Shown here in pieces: positions 2,838 through 10,938 of a stretch of DNA of 10,938 nucleotides. Numbering within the stretch: position 1 is the stretch's first letter; the number at the start of each line of letters is the position of its first letter. Source of the DNA: Candidatus Latescibacterota bacterium (lineage in GTDB: Bacteria > JAAXHH01 > JACQVL01); the NCBI GenBank assembly GCA_016209865.1, contig JACQVL010000187.1, positions 1 to 10,938 of the forward strand, read 5' to 3'. The position numbers and the translations under genes were made by a program. The notes beneath the pieces were generated by a model that was given only the letters and a program-made list of their open reading frames with translations, had not been told where the DNA came from and made no database searches.

Positions 2838-5800
2838 TTATTTCACCAGCGCCATCTTCCTCGTCTTCACGAACGCGCCGGCTTCTAAGCGATAGAAGTA
2901 AATCCCGCTCGACACTCGTTCCCCGCTGTGACTCCGTCCGTTCCACCGGATCGCATAGAACCCGGCCTCCTTCGGCTCGTTGTGCAGCAGGGCCACGACT
3001 TCCTGTCCCAGCAGGTTGTAGACCTTGAGCGTGACGACACTGGCCGTGGGCAGGTCGAACCGGATTGTCGTTTCCGGGTTGAACGGGTTGGGGTAGTTCT
3101 GGCCTAACGCGAACACCTTCGGCGCACTCACCCGGATGGCGATCGGCCCGAACCGCGTGGACAGACCCGCCGCATAGACCGCTTCCACCTGGTAGTAGTA
3201 CACCTGATTGACCGTCACCCCTCGATCCACGTACTGGAACGCCTGACCCGTCACCGGGGTTTTCGTCAATTTCTCAAACCCCGCCTGCGGACGCAAACTC
3301 CGATAGACGTGGAACCCGGTCAGCCCCGGCTGCCCGCGCGCAATCGTCCAGGTCACTGTGACGACCCCCCGTTCATCCGTGGCCGCGAAGCTGGCCAGTT
3401 CCACGGCCGAGGGCTTACTCGTGCTGGCGATGAACGTCCGCTTGGCCGACCATCCGCCGTCGAACACGCTGTCGTTCGCCCGTGACCGCCAGTAGTAGCG
3501 CGTGCCACTGACCAGCGCCGTGCTGTCCGTCTGGCCGACATCCAGCACCTGCCAGTGGGTCGGGTTGGTGGACGTCCCCTGCGCGATGCCCGTCTTCGCG
3601 GCCGTCAGGGTCGTGAACAGAGAGTCTTCCGCCACCTGGAACGCGTACACGAGCGTCGCCCGGCTCGCATCCCCCGTCACCGGCGTGGCGTCCCCCACGA
3701 TCAGGACGGGCTTCAGGGAGACGGTATCCGGCGTGGCCACGGACGTCGGCGCGGTCGGCACCTGAGTCGTATTGGGGGTGACGTTCGCCGTGGCCGCCGA
3801 CGCCGTCCCCGTGTTGCCTCCCAAGTCGAGCGCCGCGACGGTGTAGCTGTACGCCGTCCCGTTCGTGACGTTCACATCCAGGTAGGTGGTGTCCTGCACG
3901 TTGGAGACGATTGCGGCGCTGTTGCGGGTGAGGTTATACCCCGCGATGCCGGAGGCGTCCGTGCTCGGGGCCCAGCGCACCCGCACCGCCCCGTCGCCAG
4001 GAATGGCCACGACCGTGGTGGGCGTGCTCGGCGGGGTCGCGTCTACGGAGGCGGGCATCTGCTGGTTGTCGAGCGCACTCAGCGCGGCCGGGGCGGGCAC
4101 CCGGGTGTCGTTCACGTTCACCGACCCGACCTTGAAGTAGTAGGTCTTATTCAGCGTCAGCTTCGTGACCGAGAGGCTGTGGGTCAGCGTCCCGGTCTGA
4201 TCCCCGACGGTGATCTTCGTGGCCAACGTCGCCACCGTGTCATAGTCGACGAAGCTCGTCGCCAGCTTGTCCGTCGTCCAGGTGACGGTCAGCGTCGCGC
4301 TCGTGTCCGGCTTGGCCACCGCCGCCTTCTGGATGGTGGAGAGCACCGGCTGGGCGGTGTCGGGCGTCGCCAGCGTGGTGAACGTGTTCGTCGCGCTGGG
4401 GGTCGGCCCGTTGTTACTCACGTCCGTCGAGAAGACCCGGTAGTAATACGGCGTACTGGTCGTCAGACTCGTCAACGTCAGGAGATGACTCGTCACCGGG
4501 GTTGCGTCGGTGACCGAGAGGGTGAGACTGTCCGGATGCGAGTTCGTCCCGAACCGCACCTCCGAGGAGGCGGCTTCATCCGTCGTCCAACTGACGGTCG
4601 CCCGGGTGTCTGACGGGGAGGCGGTGATGGAGGCGTCGCTGATGACCGGCGGGGTGGTATCCGCCGAGAGCGCGGTGGCTCCTACCGCCTGGGTGCTCTG
4701 CGTCGGCCCGTTGTTGCTCGGGTCGGTCGAGGCGACCTGGTAGGTGTACGTCGTGTTCGCCGCTAAGTTCGTCACGGTCAACTGATGGAGCGTCACCTGC
4801 GTCGGATCCTGCACGGTGTTCGTGAGATTCCCCCCGGCGCCGTAATTGACCACGCTCGTGCTGAGTTCGTCCGTCTCCCACTGGATGACGAGCTGGTTGT
4901 CGGTCTGGGCGATGACGCTCGGCCCGTTGAGGATGACCGGCGACTGGGTATCCGGCTGACTGTTCGTCGTGAACCGGCCGGTCGAGCCGGGGACCTGCCG
5001 GATGCCCGTGGGCACCAGCCGCCGGGAGTTCCCGACGACGATCACTTTGGCGAACACCGTGCCGGGCGGCCAGATCAACGCGTCCCCCGTCGGGGTGCTG
5101 GAGGTGATGACGAACAGGTACCCCATCCCCGGCGTCAGCCCGCTGACCCCGATCAGATGATGCCGGTCGAGCTCATCACTCCCCCGGACCAGGCTCTGAT
5201 CGACGGAGAACACCGCTGTCCCGTCCGGATCGGGCATGTAGTAGACGTACCCATCGCTCGGGATGTTCGTCCGCCAGCGGAAGACGACGTACGTATCCGT
5301 CTGGTAGACGAGCTGCGGGGAGATGACAAAGTCCAGCTTCGGCACCTGGCCGCTCGCCCGGGTGCGGAATCGCTCCACCCGGCTCCTCACGCTCCGGTTG
5401 TTGGACACCCGCGTCGAGCGGACGAAGTACCGGTAGATCGTCTCCGGCATCAGACCGGTGAGGATCACGACATGCTGGTTCGTGGGCACCGCGTCGACGA
5501 CGGTCATGGTATCCGTCGTCCCCTGTTTCCAGAACACCACCTCACTGTTACTCGCCACATCGGTCACCCACGTGATGATGGCCGTGGTATCGGTCACCCC
5601 GTAGAAGTCCGCGTTCGGCGGGACGATGATGACCGGCGGCAGGGTGTCGAGTTCGGCGGGCGTCTGGACGGTCATCGTGTCGCTCGAGGCCGTCCCTCCA
5701 GCCGCTTCTGACTGGACGAAATAGTAGTAGAGCTTGCCGGACTTCAGTCCCGTCAGGGTCACCCGGTGCCGGCGCTCAAGGCTGGCATCCGTGACGATCT

Positions 5801-6971
5801 GTGTCGCCAGGACGGCGGTCGAATCATACAGCACCGTGCTGGTGGCCCGGCGATCCGTCTCCCAGAAGATCAGCGCGCTCGTCGTCGTGATATCCAGCGC
5901 GACCGGTCCCAGGGTGATCCGCGGCGGGGCGATATCGGGAATCCCCCGCGTCTTGAACGAATCGATCAGACTGCTCACCGTCTGGCCGAACGGGTCGGTC
6001 GAGCGCACCCGGAAGTAGTAGCGCGTCGCCTTCTGCAACCCGGCCAGCGCCACCTGATGCTCGGTCACCCCCGTCGAGTCCGCCGCCGTCTCGGCCGAAT
6101 CCCCTAACGCGGGCGTCGTCCCGTAGAACACCCGGCTATCGCTCGGCCGGTTCGTCCGCCAGAGGACGATCGCGGTCGTCGTATCCGGCTCGACCACCGG
6201 CCGGCGCGTGATATCAGGGGGCCGTGGGGGTCTGATATCCTGCGCGCGGACTCCGACAAGATCGGACAGATGGGTAATCCGGACGAACAGGTCGTTCCCC
6301 TTCGTCGCAGAAAAGATGCCCTCCCGCGTGAGCCCGTCCGGCGTCAAGAACGCCAGCCCCAGCTCGTCGAACGGTGTTCCAGTGAACCCGGAGTGCTCCA
6401 GTAACGCCACGAAGTTGCCCAGGGGCAGTTTCAAGACGGCCGGGAACCCGTCCCGGAAGTCATACCGCGCCAGCACCCCGTACTTGGTTTCGATCGTCAT
6501 CCGGATGAAGAAGAAAATAGGAATCGTGTCCCCGTCGACGACGACCGGGGCAATCTTAATATTATCCTGGTCGGTCGCATCGATATTGCGAATATTGAAG
6601 TTAAGGGTAATATCCTCATCTGCGATTGATTCCTCGGGAATCAGGAGGGAGAGTGCCGTGAGGGCGTCCACGAATGGTTGGAGCAGCTCGCCATTTGGAA
6701 GGCCCGTCACATCATGCTGTTCGAGGATATTGGGAACACCAAGATCGATCGTGCCCGAATCGATCGGGACGGTGACGGTGATCGCGCCCAGGATGGGCAC
6801 CTGGATCTTGGCGGTGACCGTCACCCGCGCCTTGATCTGCCGTTGTTGGGGGTGTTGGGCTGAAGCCACCGATGCACTCAAGAGCAGCATGAATGGCAGG
6901 CACCACGCGGCCATACGTTGTAAGCTCTTGGATGAGCAAAAAATCCTGAACAGCACGCAAGTTCGGTTCAT
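2838..6971 (-). CDS. Giant secreted multi-FN3 protein with PAP-like domains and C-terminal type IX-type sorting domain
   Basis: A 1377-residue protein starting at 6971. That start is preferred over the longer frame beginning at 7064 because it has a strong GGGAGGGG ribosome site and opens directly into a signal peptide (hydrophobic about 20-35, cleavage ASA|Q at 38/39). Residues about 39-245 form a domain I do not recognise. From about 247 to 1285 come roughly ten FN3-type domains. Domains 1-7 repeat the pattern W-x-T-(D/N)-x(3)-S-x-V-x-(Y/F), then L-T-x-L-x(4)-Y-Y-x-(F/V)-x-V-x-S-T, which resembles the purple acid phosphatase N-terminal/FN3 fold. Domain 8 is a classical FN3; 9 and 10 are more diverged. 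Domains 5 and 6 share SNNGPT and look like a recent duplication. Residues about 1286-1377 are the sorting domain: QNYPNPFNPETTIRFDLP, VYNLLGQEV, SGIYFYRL, ending KTRKMALVK. It is probably exported and attached to or released from the cell surface. No catalytic domain is visible; binding or adhesion is inference. Confidence 0.88.
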   Translation of the reverse strand: MNRTCVLFRIFCSSKSLQRMAAWCLPFMLLLSASVASAQHPQQRQIKARVTVTAKIQVPILGAITVTVPIDSGTIDLGVPNILEQHDVTGLPNGELLQPFVDALTALSLLIPEESIADEDITLNFNIRNIDATDQDNIKIAPVVVDGDTIPIFFFIRMTIETKYGVLARYDFRDGFPAVLKLPLGNFVALLEHSGFTGTPFDELGLAFLTPDGLTREGIFSATKGNDLFVRITHLSDLVGVRAQDIRPPRPPDITRRPVVEPDTTTAIVLWRTNRPSDSRVFYGTTPALGDSAETAADSTGVTEHQVALAGLQKATRYYFRVRSTDPFGQTVSSLIDSFKTRGIPDIAPPRITLGPVALDITTTSALIFWETDRRATSTVLYDSTAVLATQIVTDASLERRHRVTLTGLKSGKLYYYFVQSEAAGGTASSDTMTVQTPAELDTLPPVIIVPPNADFYGVTDTTAIITWVTDVASNSEVVFWKQGTTDTMTVVDAVPTNQHVVILTGLMPETIYRYFVRSTRVSNNRSVRSRVERFRTRASGQVPKLDFVISPQLVYQTDTYVVFRWRTNIPSDGYVYYMPDPDGTAVFSVDQSLVRGSDELDRHHLIGVSGLTPGMGYLFVITSSTPTGDALIWPPGTVFAKVIVVGNSRRLVPTGIRQVPGSTGRFTTNSQPDTQSPVILNGPSVIAQTDNQLVIQWETDELSTSVVNYGAGGNLTNTVQDPTQVTLHQLTVTNLAANTTYTYQVASTDPSNNGPTQSTQAVGATALSADTTPPVISDASITASPSDTRATVSWTTDEAASSEVRFGTNSHPDSLTLSVTDATPVTSHLLTLTSLTTSTPYYYRVFSTDVSNNGPTPSATNTFTTLATPDTAQPVLSTIQKAAVAKPDTSATLTVTWTTDKLATSFVDYDTVATLATKITVGDQTGTLTHSLSVTKLTLNKTYYFKVGSVNVNDTRVPAPAALSALDNQQMPASVDATPPSTPTTVVAIPGDGAVRVRWAPSTDASGIAGYNLTRNSAAIVSNVQDTTYLDVNVTNGTAYSYTVAALDLGGNTGTASAATANVTPNTTQVPTAPTSVATPDTVSLKPVLIVGDATPVTGDASRATLVYAFQVAEDSLFTTLTAAKTGIAQGTSTNPTHWQVLDVGQTDSTALVSGTRYYWRSRANDSVFDGGWSAKRTFIASTSKPSAVELASFAATDERGVVTVTWTIARGQPGLTGFHVYRSLRPQAGFEKLTKTPVTGQAFQYVDRGVTVNQVYYYQVEAVYAAGLSTRFGPIAIRVSAPKVFALGQNYPNPFNPETTIRFDLPTASVVTLKVYNLLGQEVVALLHNEPKEAGFYAIRWNGRSHSGERVSSGIYFYRLEAGAFVKTRKMALVK

Positions 6972-6976
6972 GAATA

Positions 6977-6984
6977 CCCCTCCC
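6977..6984 (-). promoter_or_regulatory. Ribosome binding site deciding the start of the giant FN3 protein
   Basis: On the minus strand GGGAGGGG is followed, 7 bases after its GGAGG core, by ATG at 6971. None of the earlier in-frame starts up to 7064 has a comparable site, and they would put 31 extra residues in front of the signal peptide. Confidence 0.75.
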
Positions 6985-7031
6985 TCTTCAGATGGAATGT
7001 GGAAACAGATTGCAAGGGTCATCGATCTTTC

Positions 7032-7060
7032 GTAATATATTATCAATATCGACCGAGCAA
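7032..7060 (-). promoter_or_regulatory. Candidate proximal promoter of the giant FN3 protein gene
   Basis: On the minus strand TTGCTC (7060-7055) and TATTAC (7037-7032) are 17 bases apart within the only strongly AT-rich patch near the gene. Transcription would start near 7025, giving a leader of about 54 bases. Both boxes are only partial matches to the sigma-70 consensus. Confidence 0.35.
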
Positions 7061-7188
7061 GCAAGGCATGGGACTGGACAGGTGGGATTCTCTACCGTTG
7101 AAGGTAGTGACCGATCCGATGTCTGAATATGACCCACATCACATCACGACCCACGCCGTCATCGGGAATCGACTCGAGGAACGTCCAT

Positions 7189-7381: not shown

Positions 7382-7409
7382 GTAGGGGCGCAGAATTCTG
7401 CGCCCCTAC
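7382..7409. repeat. Perfect 28-bp palindrome (family C)
   Basis: GTAGGGGCGCAGAA is followed at once by its exact reverse complement TTCTGCGCCCCTAC. The GTAGGGGCG...CGCCCCTAC ends resemble a known kind of short dispersed intergenic palindrome. No T-tract follows, so it is not a simple terminator. As RNA it would fold into a stem near the 5' end of the hydroxylase operon message, about 95 bases before the first start codon; as DNA it could be a dimeric protein site. Confidence 0.8.
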
Positions 7410-7505: not shown

Positions 7506-8381
7506 TTGTACGACTTTGACTATGCGTCACCCCGGAGTGTGCGTGAGGCGGTCTCGTTGCTGGAACGGCGGGGGGATGACGCCCGCGTCCTCAGCGGCGG
7601 CACCGACCTCATCGTGCAGCTCAGAGAAGGCCGGCGGAAAGCCGGCCTGGTGGTCGACATCAAGGAGATCCCCGAGGTCAACGATCTGTCGTACGGCCCC
7701 CGGCAGGGTCTCCGGCTCGGCGCAGCCGTCCCCTGCTACAAAATTTACGGGAATGAGACGGTCCAGAAGCTCTATCCCGGCCTGATCGACGCCGTCTCCC
7801 TCGTCGGCGGCATCCAGATTCAGGGACGGGCGACGGTCGGTGGGAACCTGTGCAACGCCTCGCCCGCCGCCGATACCATTCCCCCCCTGATCGTCTTAGG
7901 GGCCGCCTGCGTGATCGCCGGTCCCCAGGGCACGCGCACGGTGCCCGTCGAAGACTTCTGCATCGCCCCCGGCCGGACCGTCCTTCAGCGGGGTGAATTC
8001 CTCCTCTCCCTCCGCATCCCACCTCCCCTCAAAAACTCCGGCGCGTTCTATCTTCGCTTCATCCCGCGGAATGAGATGGACATCGCGGTCGTCGGCGCGG
8101 GCGCCAGCGTGGTGCTGGGCAAAAGACGGACCGTGTTCGTGTCCGCCCGCGTCGCGTTAGGGGCGGTCGCCCCGACGCCGCTGTTCGTGCGCGAAGCCGG
8201 AGATGCGTTAGCCGAGAAACCAGTGTCCGATGAGAGCATCCAGCAGGCGGCTGAGATCGCCAGGGCGGCCGCCCGGCCGATCAGTGATATGCGCGGGACG
8301 GCCGACCATCGACGCCACCTCGTCGGCGTCCTCACCCGACGAGCCCTGGAAGGCGCCATTCGACGAGCGAAGGAGTCGTAA
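7506..8381 (+). CDS. FAD-binding medium subunit of a xanthine dehydrogenase/CODH-family molybdenum hydroxylase
   Basis: A 291-residue protein of the CoxM/HcrB type, the usual length for the stand-alone FAD subunit. It takes electrons from the iron-sulfur subunit and passes them to an external acceptor. Seen: the FAD-binding signatures LSGGTDL (29-35) and ATVGGNLCNASPAAD (109-123), and the C-terminal CO_deh_flav_C-like part with RNEMDIAVVGAG (188-199) and later SDMRGTADHRR. The TTG start is set by the ribosome site 7 bases upstream. It is the first gene of the operon: its TAA is 3 bases before the ATG of the small subunit, and the small subunit's AAGGAG (8370-8375) lies inside its last codons. 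Subunit identity is firm. The enzyme's substrate is not shown by this subunit, so I give no gene symbol. Confidence 0.93.
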   Translation: MYDFDYASPRSVREAVSLLERRGDDARVLSGGTDLIVQLREGRRKAGLVVDIKEIPEVNDLSYGPRQGLRLGAAVPCYKIYGNETVQKLYPGLIDAVSLVGGIQIQGRATVGGNLCNASPAADTIPPLIVLGAACVIAGPQGTRTVPVEDFCIAPGRTVLQRGEFLLSLRIPPPLKNSGAFYLRFIPRNEMDIAVVGAGASVVLGKRRTVFVSARVALGAVAPTPLFVREAGDALAEKPVSDESIQQAAEIARAAARPISDMRGTADHRRHLVGVLTRRALEGAIRRAKES

Positions 8382-8384
8382 TCG

Positions 8385-8864
8385 ATGTCCAGAGTCCACG
8401 TCCAAGCCCGAATCAACGGAGAAGAGACGGAATTCCTCTGCGAGCCGCGCCAGAGCCTGCTGGAAGTCTTGCGAGACGTCCTGATGCTCACCGGCTCGAA
8501 AGAGGGTTGCAACAACGGTAACTGCGGGGCGTGCAACGTCATCCTCGACGGCCGTCTGGTGAATTCCTGCTTAGTGCTTGGGGTCGAGGCCCAGGGGAAA
8601 GACATCCAGACGATCGAGGGACTGGCCACCCCCGATCGCCTGCATCCGCTCCAGCAGCAATTCTTAGAGCATGCCGCCCTCCAGTGCGGCATCTGTACCC
8701 CCGGCTTCATCGTCGCCGCCAAGGCGCTGCTGGACAAGAACCCGCACCCCACCGAACCGCAGGTGCGCCATTGGCTGGCCGGGAACCTGTGCCGCTGTAC
8801 CGGGTACGATAAGATCGTCAGAGCCGTCCTCAGCGCCGCCGACGCGGTGAGGGACGGGAGATAA
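8385..8864 (+). CDS. [2Fe-2S] small subunit of the molybdenum hydroxylase
   Basis: A 159-residue protein of the CoxS type, normal length, carrying two [2Fe-2S] clusters that carry electrons from the molybdenum centre to FAD. The N-terminal plant-type ferredoxin domain has C42, C47, C50 and C62 (GCNNGNCGAC ... SC). The C-terminal four-helix domain has C101 and C104 in QCGICTPG, and C136 and C138 in NLCRCTGY. All eight ligands are present. The Gln before C101 is the residue that contacts the molybdopterin cofactor in characterised relatives. The start ATG 8385 has AAGGAG 9 bases upstream. It is followed by a repeat-filled gap of about 100 bases and then the large subunit, so the three are probably cotranscribed. 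Confidence 0.95.
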   Translation: MSRVHVQARINGEETEFLCEPRQSLLEVLRDVLMLTGSKEGCNNGNCGACNVILDGRLVNSCLVLGVEAQGKDIQTIEGLATPDRLHPLQQQFLEHAALQCGICTPGFIVAAKALLDKNPHPTEPQVRHWLAGNLCRCTGYDKIVRAVLSAADAVRDGR

Positions 8865-8950: not shown

Positions 8951-8958
8951 GGAGGTGA
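8951..8958 (+). promoter_or_regulatory. Ribosome binding site supporting a GTG start
   Basis: GGAGGTGA, close to the perfect anti-16S match, stands 7 bases before GTG 8966. It places the large-subunit start at 8966 and excludes the longer frame from TTG 8906, whose extra residues are translated repeat sequence. Confidence 0.85.
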
Positions 8959-8965
8959 ACCCATC

Positions 8966-9775
8966 GTGTCAGAATCCACAGCATACAAAGTCATCGGGAC
9001 GCGCCCGATCCGCCATGACGGCCTCGACAAGGTGACCGGCCGGGCGATCTACGGCGCGGACGTGCAGATGGTCGGACTGTTGTACGGGAAGATCCTGCGC
9101 AGCCCGCACGCGCACGCGCGCATCCGCAAGATCGACACCAGCCGCGCGCTGGCCCTCCCGGGGGTCAAGGCGGTGACGACCCATCAGGACCTGCCCAGTC
9201 TTGATGATAAGATCGCAGATTTGGGCGAAGCCGTCGTCAACATGCGGTACATGAGCAACAACATTTTAGCGGAGGGGAAGGTGCTCTACAAGGGCCACGC
9301 CGTGGCCGCGGTCGCCGCCACCAGCCCGCACATCGCGGAAGAAGCCCTCGCCCTGATCGACGTGGAGTATGAAGTCCTCCCGCCGGTGATGGACGTGCTC
9401 GACGCGATGAACGAGCGCGCGCCGCTCGTGCTGGAGGACCTCAAAACCTCGTCGATCGGCCAGAAGGGGGATAGGCCGAGCAACGTCGCCAGCCATTTCC
9501 AGCACAAATTAGGCGACCCGGAGAAGGGGTTTGCGGAAGCGGACGTGGTGATCGACCGGGAGTTCCACACCGCGACGGTGCACCAGGGGTACATCGAGCC
9601 GCACAACGCCACCGCCCTCTACAGCCCGGACGGCCATCTGACGGTGTGGTGCAGCACTCAGGGGGCGTTCGCTGTCCGCTCCCAGCTCGCCGAGATCCTC
9701 CAGATGCCCATCGCGACGGTCAAGGTCGTGCCTCCGGCGCTCGGCGGCGGGTTCGGCGGGACGATGACCTACTAA
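8966..9775 (+). CDS. Molybdopterin-binding large subunit, N-terminal portion ending at an in-frame premature TAA
   Basis: This encodes residues 1-269 of a xanthine dehydrogenase-family molybdopterin-binding subunit, which would normally be about 750-780 residues. Seen: the N-terminal a/b hammerhead domain (RHDGLDKVTGRAIYGADV at 17-34, then ILRSPHAHARI) and the beginning of the first molybdopterin-binding domain (VHQGYIEPHNATA at 205-217, TQGAFAVRSQLAEIL, and GGGFGG at 260-265). The frame then meets TAA at 9773-9775, yet clear homology continues in the same frame right after it (LEPEAAILSKKTG). The Lys that usually follows GGGFGG is Thr here. The gene is therefore disrupted, read through, or mis-sequenced at one spot. 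If the stop is real the product lacks most cofactor contacts and the complex would be inactive. It follows the small subunit in the operon; the GTG start is set by GGAGGTGA. Confidence 0.85.
   Translation: MSESTAYKVIGTRPIRHDGLDKVTGRAIYGADVQMVGLLYGKILRSPHAHARIRKIDTSRALALPGVKAVTTHQDLPSLDDKIADLGEAVVNMRYMSNNILAEGKVLYKGHAVAAVAATSPHIAEEALALIDVEYEVLPPVMDVLDAMNERAPLVLEDLKTSSIGQKGDRPSNVASHFQHKLGDPEKGFAEADVVIDREFHTATVHQGYIEPHNATALYSPDGHLTVWCSTQGAFAVRSQLAEILQMPIATVKVVPPALGGGFGGTMTY
9773..9775 (+). other. In-frame TAA interrupting the large subunit
   Basis: Reading from GTG 8966 this is codon 270. It follows TAC and precedes CTT. It sits where relatives have the Tyr of a Y-LEP segment, or alternatively is an extra codon just after that Tyr. 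Being TAA it cannot encode selenocysteine or pyrrolysine by known mechanisms. Confidence 0.9.
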
Positions 9776-10938
9776 CTTGAGCCGGAGGCCGCCATCCTGT
9801 CGAAGAAGACCGGCCATCCGGTCAAGATGGTGATGAACCGGACGGAGGTGTTCGAGGGCACCGGGCCGACGCCGGGGTCGTACATCCGGGTGAAAATGGG
9901 GGCGACGAAGCAGGGCCGGCTCACGGCCGCGGAGGCGTACATGGCCTACGAAGCCGGGGCGTACCCCGGCTCGCCCGTCGGGGCGGGCGCCGGGTGCATC
10001 TTCACCCCGTACGACATCCCCAACGTCGTCATCGACGGGTACGACGTCATCGTCAACAAGCCGAAGACGAACGCCTACCGGGCGCCCGGCGCGACCAACG
10101 CCGCGCTCGCCTCAGAGACGGTCGTCGATGAACTCGCCGAACGGCTGGGCATCGACCCGCTGGAGTTCCGCCGCCTCAACGGGGCGAAGGAAGGCGCCCG
10201 GCGGGCGGACGGGCCGATCCACCCGCGCATCGGGTATCTTGAGGTGGTCGAGGCGGCCATGAAACACCCGCATTACACCGCCCCGCTCGGCGGCCCCAAC
10301 CGGGGCCGCGGAGTGGCGTCCGGGTACTGGTTCAACTGGAACGGCGGCAAGTCGTGCATCTCCGTCAGCGTCAACCCGAACGGGACGGTCAACTTAGTCG
10401 AAGGGTCGACGGACATCGGCGGGACGCGCGCGTCGGTCGCCATGCAATTCGCCGAAGTCCTGGGCATCGCGGCCGAGGACGTGAACCCGATGGTCGTGGA
10501 CACCGACTCGATCGGGTACACGGACGTGACGGGCGGGAGCCGGACGGCGTTCGGCACGGGCTGGGCCGCGTACGAGGCCGGGCAGGCGATCAAACGACAG
10601 ATGATGGAACGGGCGGGCAAGCTGTGGGAAGTCTCCCCGGATGCGGTTGATTTCAAGGATGGGGTGTTCTTCTACAAGAGCGACCCGGAGAAGCGGATCA
10701 CCTTCAAGGAACTGGCGGGGAAGCTGGATCAGACTGGCGGGCCGGTCGTGGCGTCTGTGACCACCGACCCGCAAGGCGCCTTCGGCGGGGCGTTCGCCAC
10801 GCATATCGTCGATGTCGAAGTCGACCCGGAGACGGGCAAGGTGCAGGTCCTGCGGTATACCACTGTGCAGGATGTGGGCAAGGCCATCCATCCGAGCTAC
10901 GTGGAGGGCCAGATGCAGGGTGGAGTGGTGCAGGGCAT
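9776..10938 (+). pseudogene. Molybdopterin-binding large subunit, continuation after the stop (3' end outside window)
   Basis: These 387 codons continue the large-subunit frame with no further stop and with codon use like the upstream part. Seen in order: LEPEAAILSKKTGHPVKMVM; the active-site loop motif AYRAPG (10073-10090, about residue 370-375 of the whole protein); PNRGRGVASGYWFNW; GSTDIGGTRASVAMQFAEVL; VTGGSRTAFGTGWAAYEAG; and GQMQGGVVQG at the window edge. AYRAPG marks the xanthine/aldehyde/hydroxybenzoyl-CoA-reductase-like branch, as opposed to AYRCSFR of form I CO dehydrogenase, so the substrate is unknown. The catalytic Glu expected near the C-terminus lies beyond the window. The first ATG (9827) has no ribosome site and lies inside a conserved strand, so independent translation is unlikely. 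The conserved state of this half argues for a very recent mutation or a sequence error. Confidence 0.8.

Follow-up and report, generated by a model that had tools for sequence, protein, structure and literature searches.

Molybdenum hydroxylases of the xanthine dehydrogenase and 4-hydroxybenzoyl-CoA reductase type, which are built from separate subunits, have the gene order FAD subunit, [2Fe-2S] subunit, large subunit, and their large subunits carry the domains Ald_Xan_dh_C, MoCoBD_1, and MoCoBD_2. In nicotinate dehydrogenase (3hrd), the molybdenum subunit is itself made in two pieces, chains A (425 aa) and B (330 aa). The locus described here shares its gene order and domains with the first type and a molybdenum subunit in two pieces with the second, and it resembles bacterial nonsense pseudogenes in having a stop confined to a single lineage in an otherwise conserved gene. 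It differs from the xanthine dehydrogenase type in its internal TAA, in a Thr that replaces the Lys after the GGGFGG motif, and in a large subunit that reaches none of the NCBIfam equivalog cut-offs. The split of nicotinate dehydrogenase, by comparison, coincides with a domain boundary ~160 residues past the present break, and nonsense pseudogenes differ in that here there is no decay elsewhere in the gene and several conserved residues are lost beside the stop.

The operon and its interrupted large subunit gene

The window, the whole 10,938-nucleotide stretch that was analyzed, makes up all of contig C133, from a fragmented assembly of metagenome type (MAG) of a Candidatus Latescibacterota bacterium (3.75 Mb, 356 contigs, 83% completeness). 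A three-gene molybdenum hydroxylase operon begins at 7506, with the subunit order assigned from Pfam matches (Table 1). The FAD and [2Fe-2S] subunits share 60-70% and 73-80% identity, respectively, with their counterparts adjoining the orthologues of the large subunit. The large subunit is placed in the xanthine oxidase family by the presence of all three Pfam domains, and its best solved relative is 1rm6 chain A. The contig stops ~110 residues before the protein would, judged by the ~770 codons typical of orthologue frames, and the C-terminal catalytic Glu would also fall past that point. Upstream of the operon, a perfect 28-base palindrome (GTAGGGGCGCAGAATTCTGCGCCCCTAC, 7382-7409) sits between divergent genes, and the minus strand at 2838-7064 encodes a large secreted-looking protein of 1408 aa. 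Inspection of it by eye suggests fibronectin-like segments that recur along the chain and, at the C-terminus, a tail resembling those of FlgD or sorting signals.

The original prediction of a gene open from 8966 and broken by an in-frame TAA agrees with the reading frame, the GTG start codon at 8966, and the ribosome-binding site in front of it, and the 387 open codons that it described past the TAA in the same frame are there as well (9776-10936), continuing as far as the contig end. The Pfam match to MoCoBD_1 (residues 169-405) spans the TAA and is followed by MoCoBD_2, and codon usage is coding-like to an equal degree on either side (0.32 before, 0.34 after). The open frame on both sides, the domain match across the TAA, and the equal codon usage together indicate one interrupted gene and not a chance arrangement of frames.

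Table 1. Features of the operon, the interrupted gene, and other in-frame stops in the same assembly.
Feature	Position	Strand	Evidence or content
FAD subunit, intact	7506..8381	+	Pfam FAD_binding_5 1.2e-44, CO_deh_flav_C 9.6e-23
[2Fe-2S] subunit, intact	8385..8864	+	Pfam Fer2_2 2.1e-32, Fer2 2.2e-7
Ribosome-binding site of large subunit, GGAGGTGA	8951..8958	+	Sequence; good site
Large (molybdopterin-binding) subunit, TAA-interrupted, cut by contig end	8966..10938	+	Pfam Ald_Xan_dh_C, MoCoBD_1, MoCoBD_2; 15 uninterrupted orthologues in phylum
9-base inverted repeat bracketing patch	9730..9789 (arms 9730-9738, 9781-9789)	.	Absent from homologues
Patch, codons 258-270	9737..9775	+	E258A, I259L, K266T, V269Y, Y270stop; 39 bases
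In-frame TAA, codon 270	9773..9775	+	Column is Tyr in 26/26 close homologues
TAG in type I restriction-like SWI2/SNF2 ATPase (DREDLDDQI-stop-RTF)	L056 (G000:C14) 13333	minus	Pfam match across stop
TAG in Helicase_C protein (RLIFT-stop-YADT)	L119 (G000:C316) 328	plus	Pfam match across stop
TGA in AhpC/TSA-family protein (...GYW-TGA-PLC...)	L131 (G000:C68) 5247	minus	Pfam match across stop

A patch of departures around the stop

The stop does not stand alone in an intact gene; it is one of several anomalous codons in a local patch. Of the 299 columns with at least 95% conservation in 26 close homologues, 15 have a different residue or the stop in the large subunit, and these are distributed as 8/115 before codon 258, 5/11 in codons 258-270, and 2/173 after. 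A scan statistic for this clustering gives p 0.0015 with the stop included and ~0.02 without it; a Fisher test on the patch gives 6e-5, with boundaries that were picked after seeing the data. The original description of the gene as otherwise intact thus holds in so far as there is no general decay, as the low count after the stop confirms, but the TAA is not the sole lesion. The same applies to the claim that all family motifs are present: GGGFGG is there, but the Lys that follows it (Lys266), invariant in 41/41 aligned homologues, is replaced by Thr. GGGFGGK is common and not absolute in the family, and 4-hydroxybenzoyl-CoA reductase (1rm6) is without this Lys.

Three sequence features were considered as a cause of the patch and set aside. 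A 17-base exact direct repeat (5613-5629 and 9751-9767), the longest in the window, occurs exactly at these two places only in the assembly and reaches into the patch as far as its first altered codons, and 1 of 400 Markov simulations contained a direct repeat as long; it ends short of the stop and was found after looking, so it is probably a chance match. For a template switch, an 18-mer search that allowed up to 3 mismatches turned up no near copy of the patch in the genome. A hairpin formed by the 9-base inverted repeat was likewise rejected, its fold not being significant (DNA z -0.88) and the repeat not unusual for the composition.

Probable recent lesion or possible local consensus error

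All 15 other genomes of the phylum that were examined carry an uninterrupted orthologue at 70-72% identity, and loci in Zixiibacteriota, Gemmatimonadota, Latescibacterota, and SAR202 assemblies are likewise uninterrupted, with the partner FAD and [2Fe-2S] genes adjoining the orthologues tested. A stop at the corresponding position was found in 0/15 phylum genomes and in no other homologous locus compared. Aligning homologues from the closest genomes, a check proposed with the original prediction, therefore shows the TAA to be confined to this assembly, a lineage-specific stop in a gene intact elsewhere, as in nonsense pseudogenes. In Gemmatimonadota and Latescibacterota loci (L035 to L038, L040), the FAD and [2Fe-2S] genes are followed by two large-subunit genes in tandem, whereas one large-subunit gene was found in genome G002 (L144), from which ~0.4 Mb of sequence was sampled.

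In-frame stops were also surveyed elsewhere in the genome, as had been suggested, by coding-score and homology scans over ~0.98 Mb, about a quarter of it. Two TAG codons and one TGA stand inside Pfam matches (Table 1); most other candidates look like antisense shadow frames or same-frame neighboring genes and were discarded. The TGA occupies the first position of a CxxC-like motif, and a tRNA-SeC (on C14) is encoded in the same genome, so the AhpC/TSA-family protein is probably a selenoprotein. The two single TAG stops mean that nonsense lesions are not unique to the large subunit; this assembly has a few of them per megabase, an unremarkable rate.

We give about an even chance to the explanation that a single lineage or strain has recently suffered an ordinary loss-of-function lesion. 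A premature TAA would have been acquired at a conserved Tyr codon of the large subunit in an otherwise intact operon, with a few neighboring substitutions gained along with it, possibly in a single multi-nucleotide event. Translation would be expected to end after 269 residues, inside MoCoBD_1, leaving no active enzyme, and the remainder of the gene would have been inactivated too recently to have decayed. The strong constraint seen past the stop indicates that any inactivation is recent. The letters of the patch are, on this explanation, presumably real in the DNA of the organism, and the truncated product is presumably inactive. A single nonsense mutation is a poorer fit, as the clustering of departures within 13 codons exceeds what it predicts, and a wrong local consensus would also account for that clustering.

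Such a consensus error is nearly as likely as a real recent lesion, although we place it somewhat short of an even chance. Here codons 258-270 would be corrupted in the consensus from a poorly covered or low-quality stretch of the MAG, and the gene of the living cells would be intact. The departures are crowded into 39 bases between normal flanks, and the kind of change within them also differs from the rest of the gene: in the patch, transversions account for all 5 of the unanimous changes at first or second codon positions (3 are A>C), versus 15/26 outside. Illumina substitution errors have been described after GG-ending motifs and inverted repeats, with A to C reported as the commonest (PMC3334598, PMC4787001). 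The GGC/CGG/GGG-rich run GGCGGCGGGTTCGGCGGG directly 5' of codon 266 and the inverted repeat at the patch resemble these motifs, a circumstantial likeness given that the assembly's platform may be another. The fragmentation and incompleteness of the MAG point the same way. Against this, clusters of errors seldom persist into a consensus, the inverted repeat is of an ordinary kind, and E258A and I259L could be normal divergence, 4-hydroxybenzoyl-CoA reductase having Leu at 259. A literature search on MAG-specific nonsense artefacts returned nothing useful.

Unlikely alternatives: readthrough, subunit splitting, and recoding

The original prediction named recent inactivation, sequence error, and readthrough as the options. 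This is the right set, but the last of them finds no support, and it is very unlikely that the TAA is read through by a near-cognate Tyr-tRNA or a suppressor to give full-length subunit at a useful level. The constraint on the gene after the stop would fit such a process, as would the identity of the missing residue, since TAA is near-cognate for Tyr. The features expected of programmed readthrough are, however, lacking in the material compared: no homologue has a stop at this place, no stimulatory fold stands out, and only tRNA-Tyr(GTA) was seen, with no TTA or CTA anticodon among the tRNAs read (36 genes found in the incomplete assembly, with anticodons read for all except one, on C241). The genome encodes intact RF1 (C114) and intact RF2 (C195). 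In E. coli reporters, TAA is the strictest of the stop codons (PMC10959953), and readthrough leaves the loss of Lys266 and Val269 unexplained. The stronger form of the idea, in which efficient decoding of the TAA, probably as Tyr, yields a molybdenum hydroxylase whose cofactor loop is altered, is more improbable still; if true, it would be surprising in a free-living bacterium that has RF1 as well as RF2. Selenocysteine recoding requires TGA and does not apply to a TAA codon, even in a genome with tRNA-SeC.

It is similarly improbable that each half is made as a subunit of its own. Nicotinate dehydrogenase provides a precedent, but its natural split, placed on this protein, falls at 432/445, where MoCoBD_1 gives way to MoCoBD_2, whereas the break at 270 falls just past the GGGFGG loop and inside MoCoBD_1. 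The first possible start past the stop, ATG 9827, would skip 17 codons of conserved sequence, and no clear ribosome-binding site precedes it.

Least probable of all is organism-wide reading of TAA, or of TAG and TAA, as an amino acid, for which the two other in-frame TAG codons could be cited, but which is opposed by the presence of both release factors and of tRNAs with ordinary anticodons, by a total of just three such unexplained stops in ~1 Mb, and by the absence of internal stops from paralogues and release-factor genes.

The observation stands, and the biology behind it is ordinary. Because the stop occurs in no relative and other odd letters lie in the same patch, the most likely cause is a mutation of recent date or an error in the local sequence, and not a novel reading of the genetic code. 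The significance beyond annotation is small. Since the neighboring codons here reveal the whole patch as odd, the locus illustrates why a gene from a metagenome assembly that shows a lone in-frame stop needs a codon-by-codon comparison with its orthologues before readthrough is considered.
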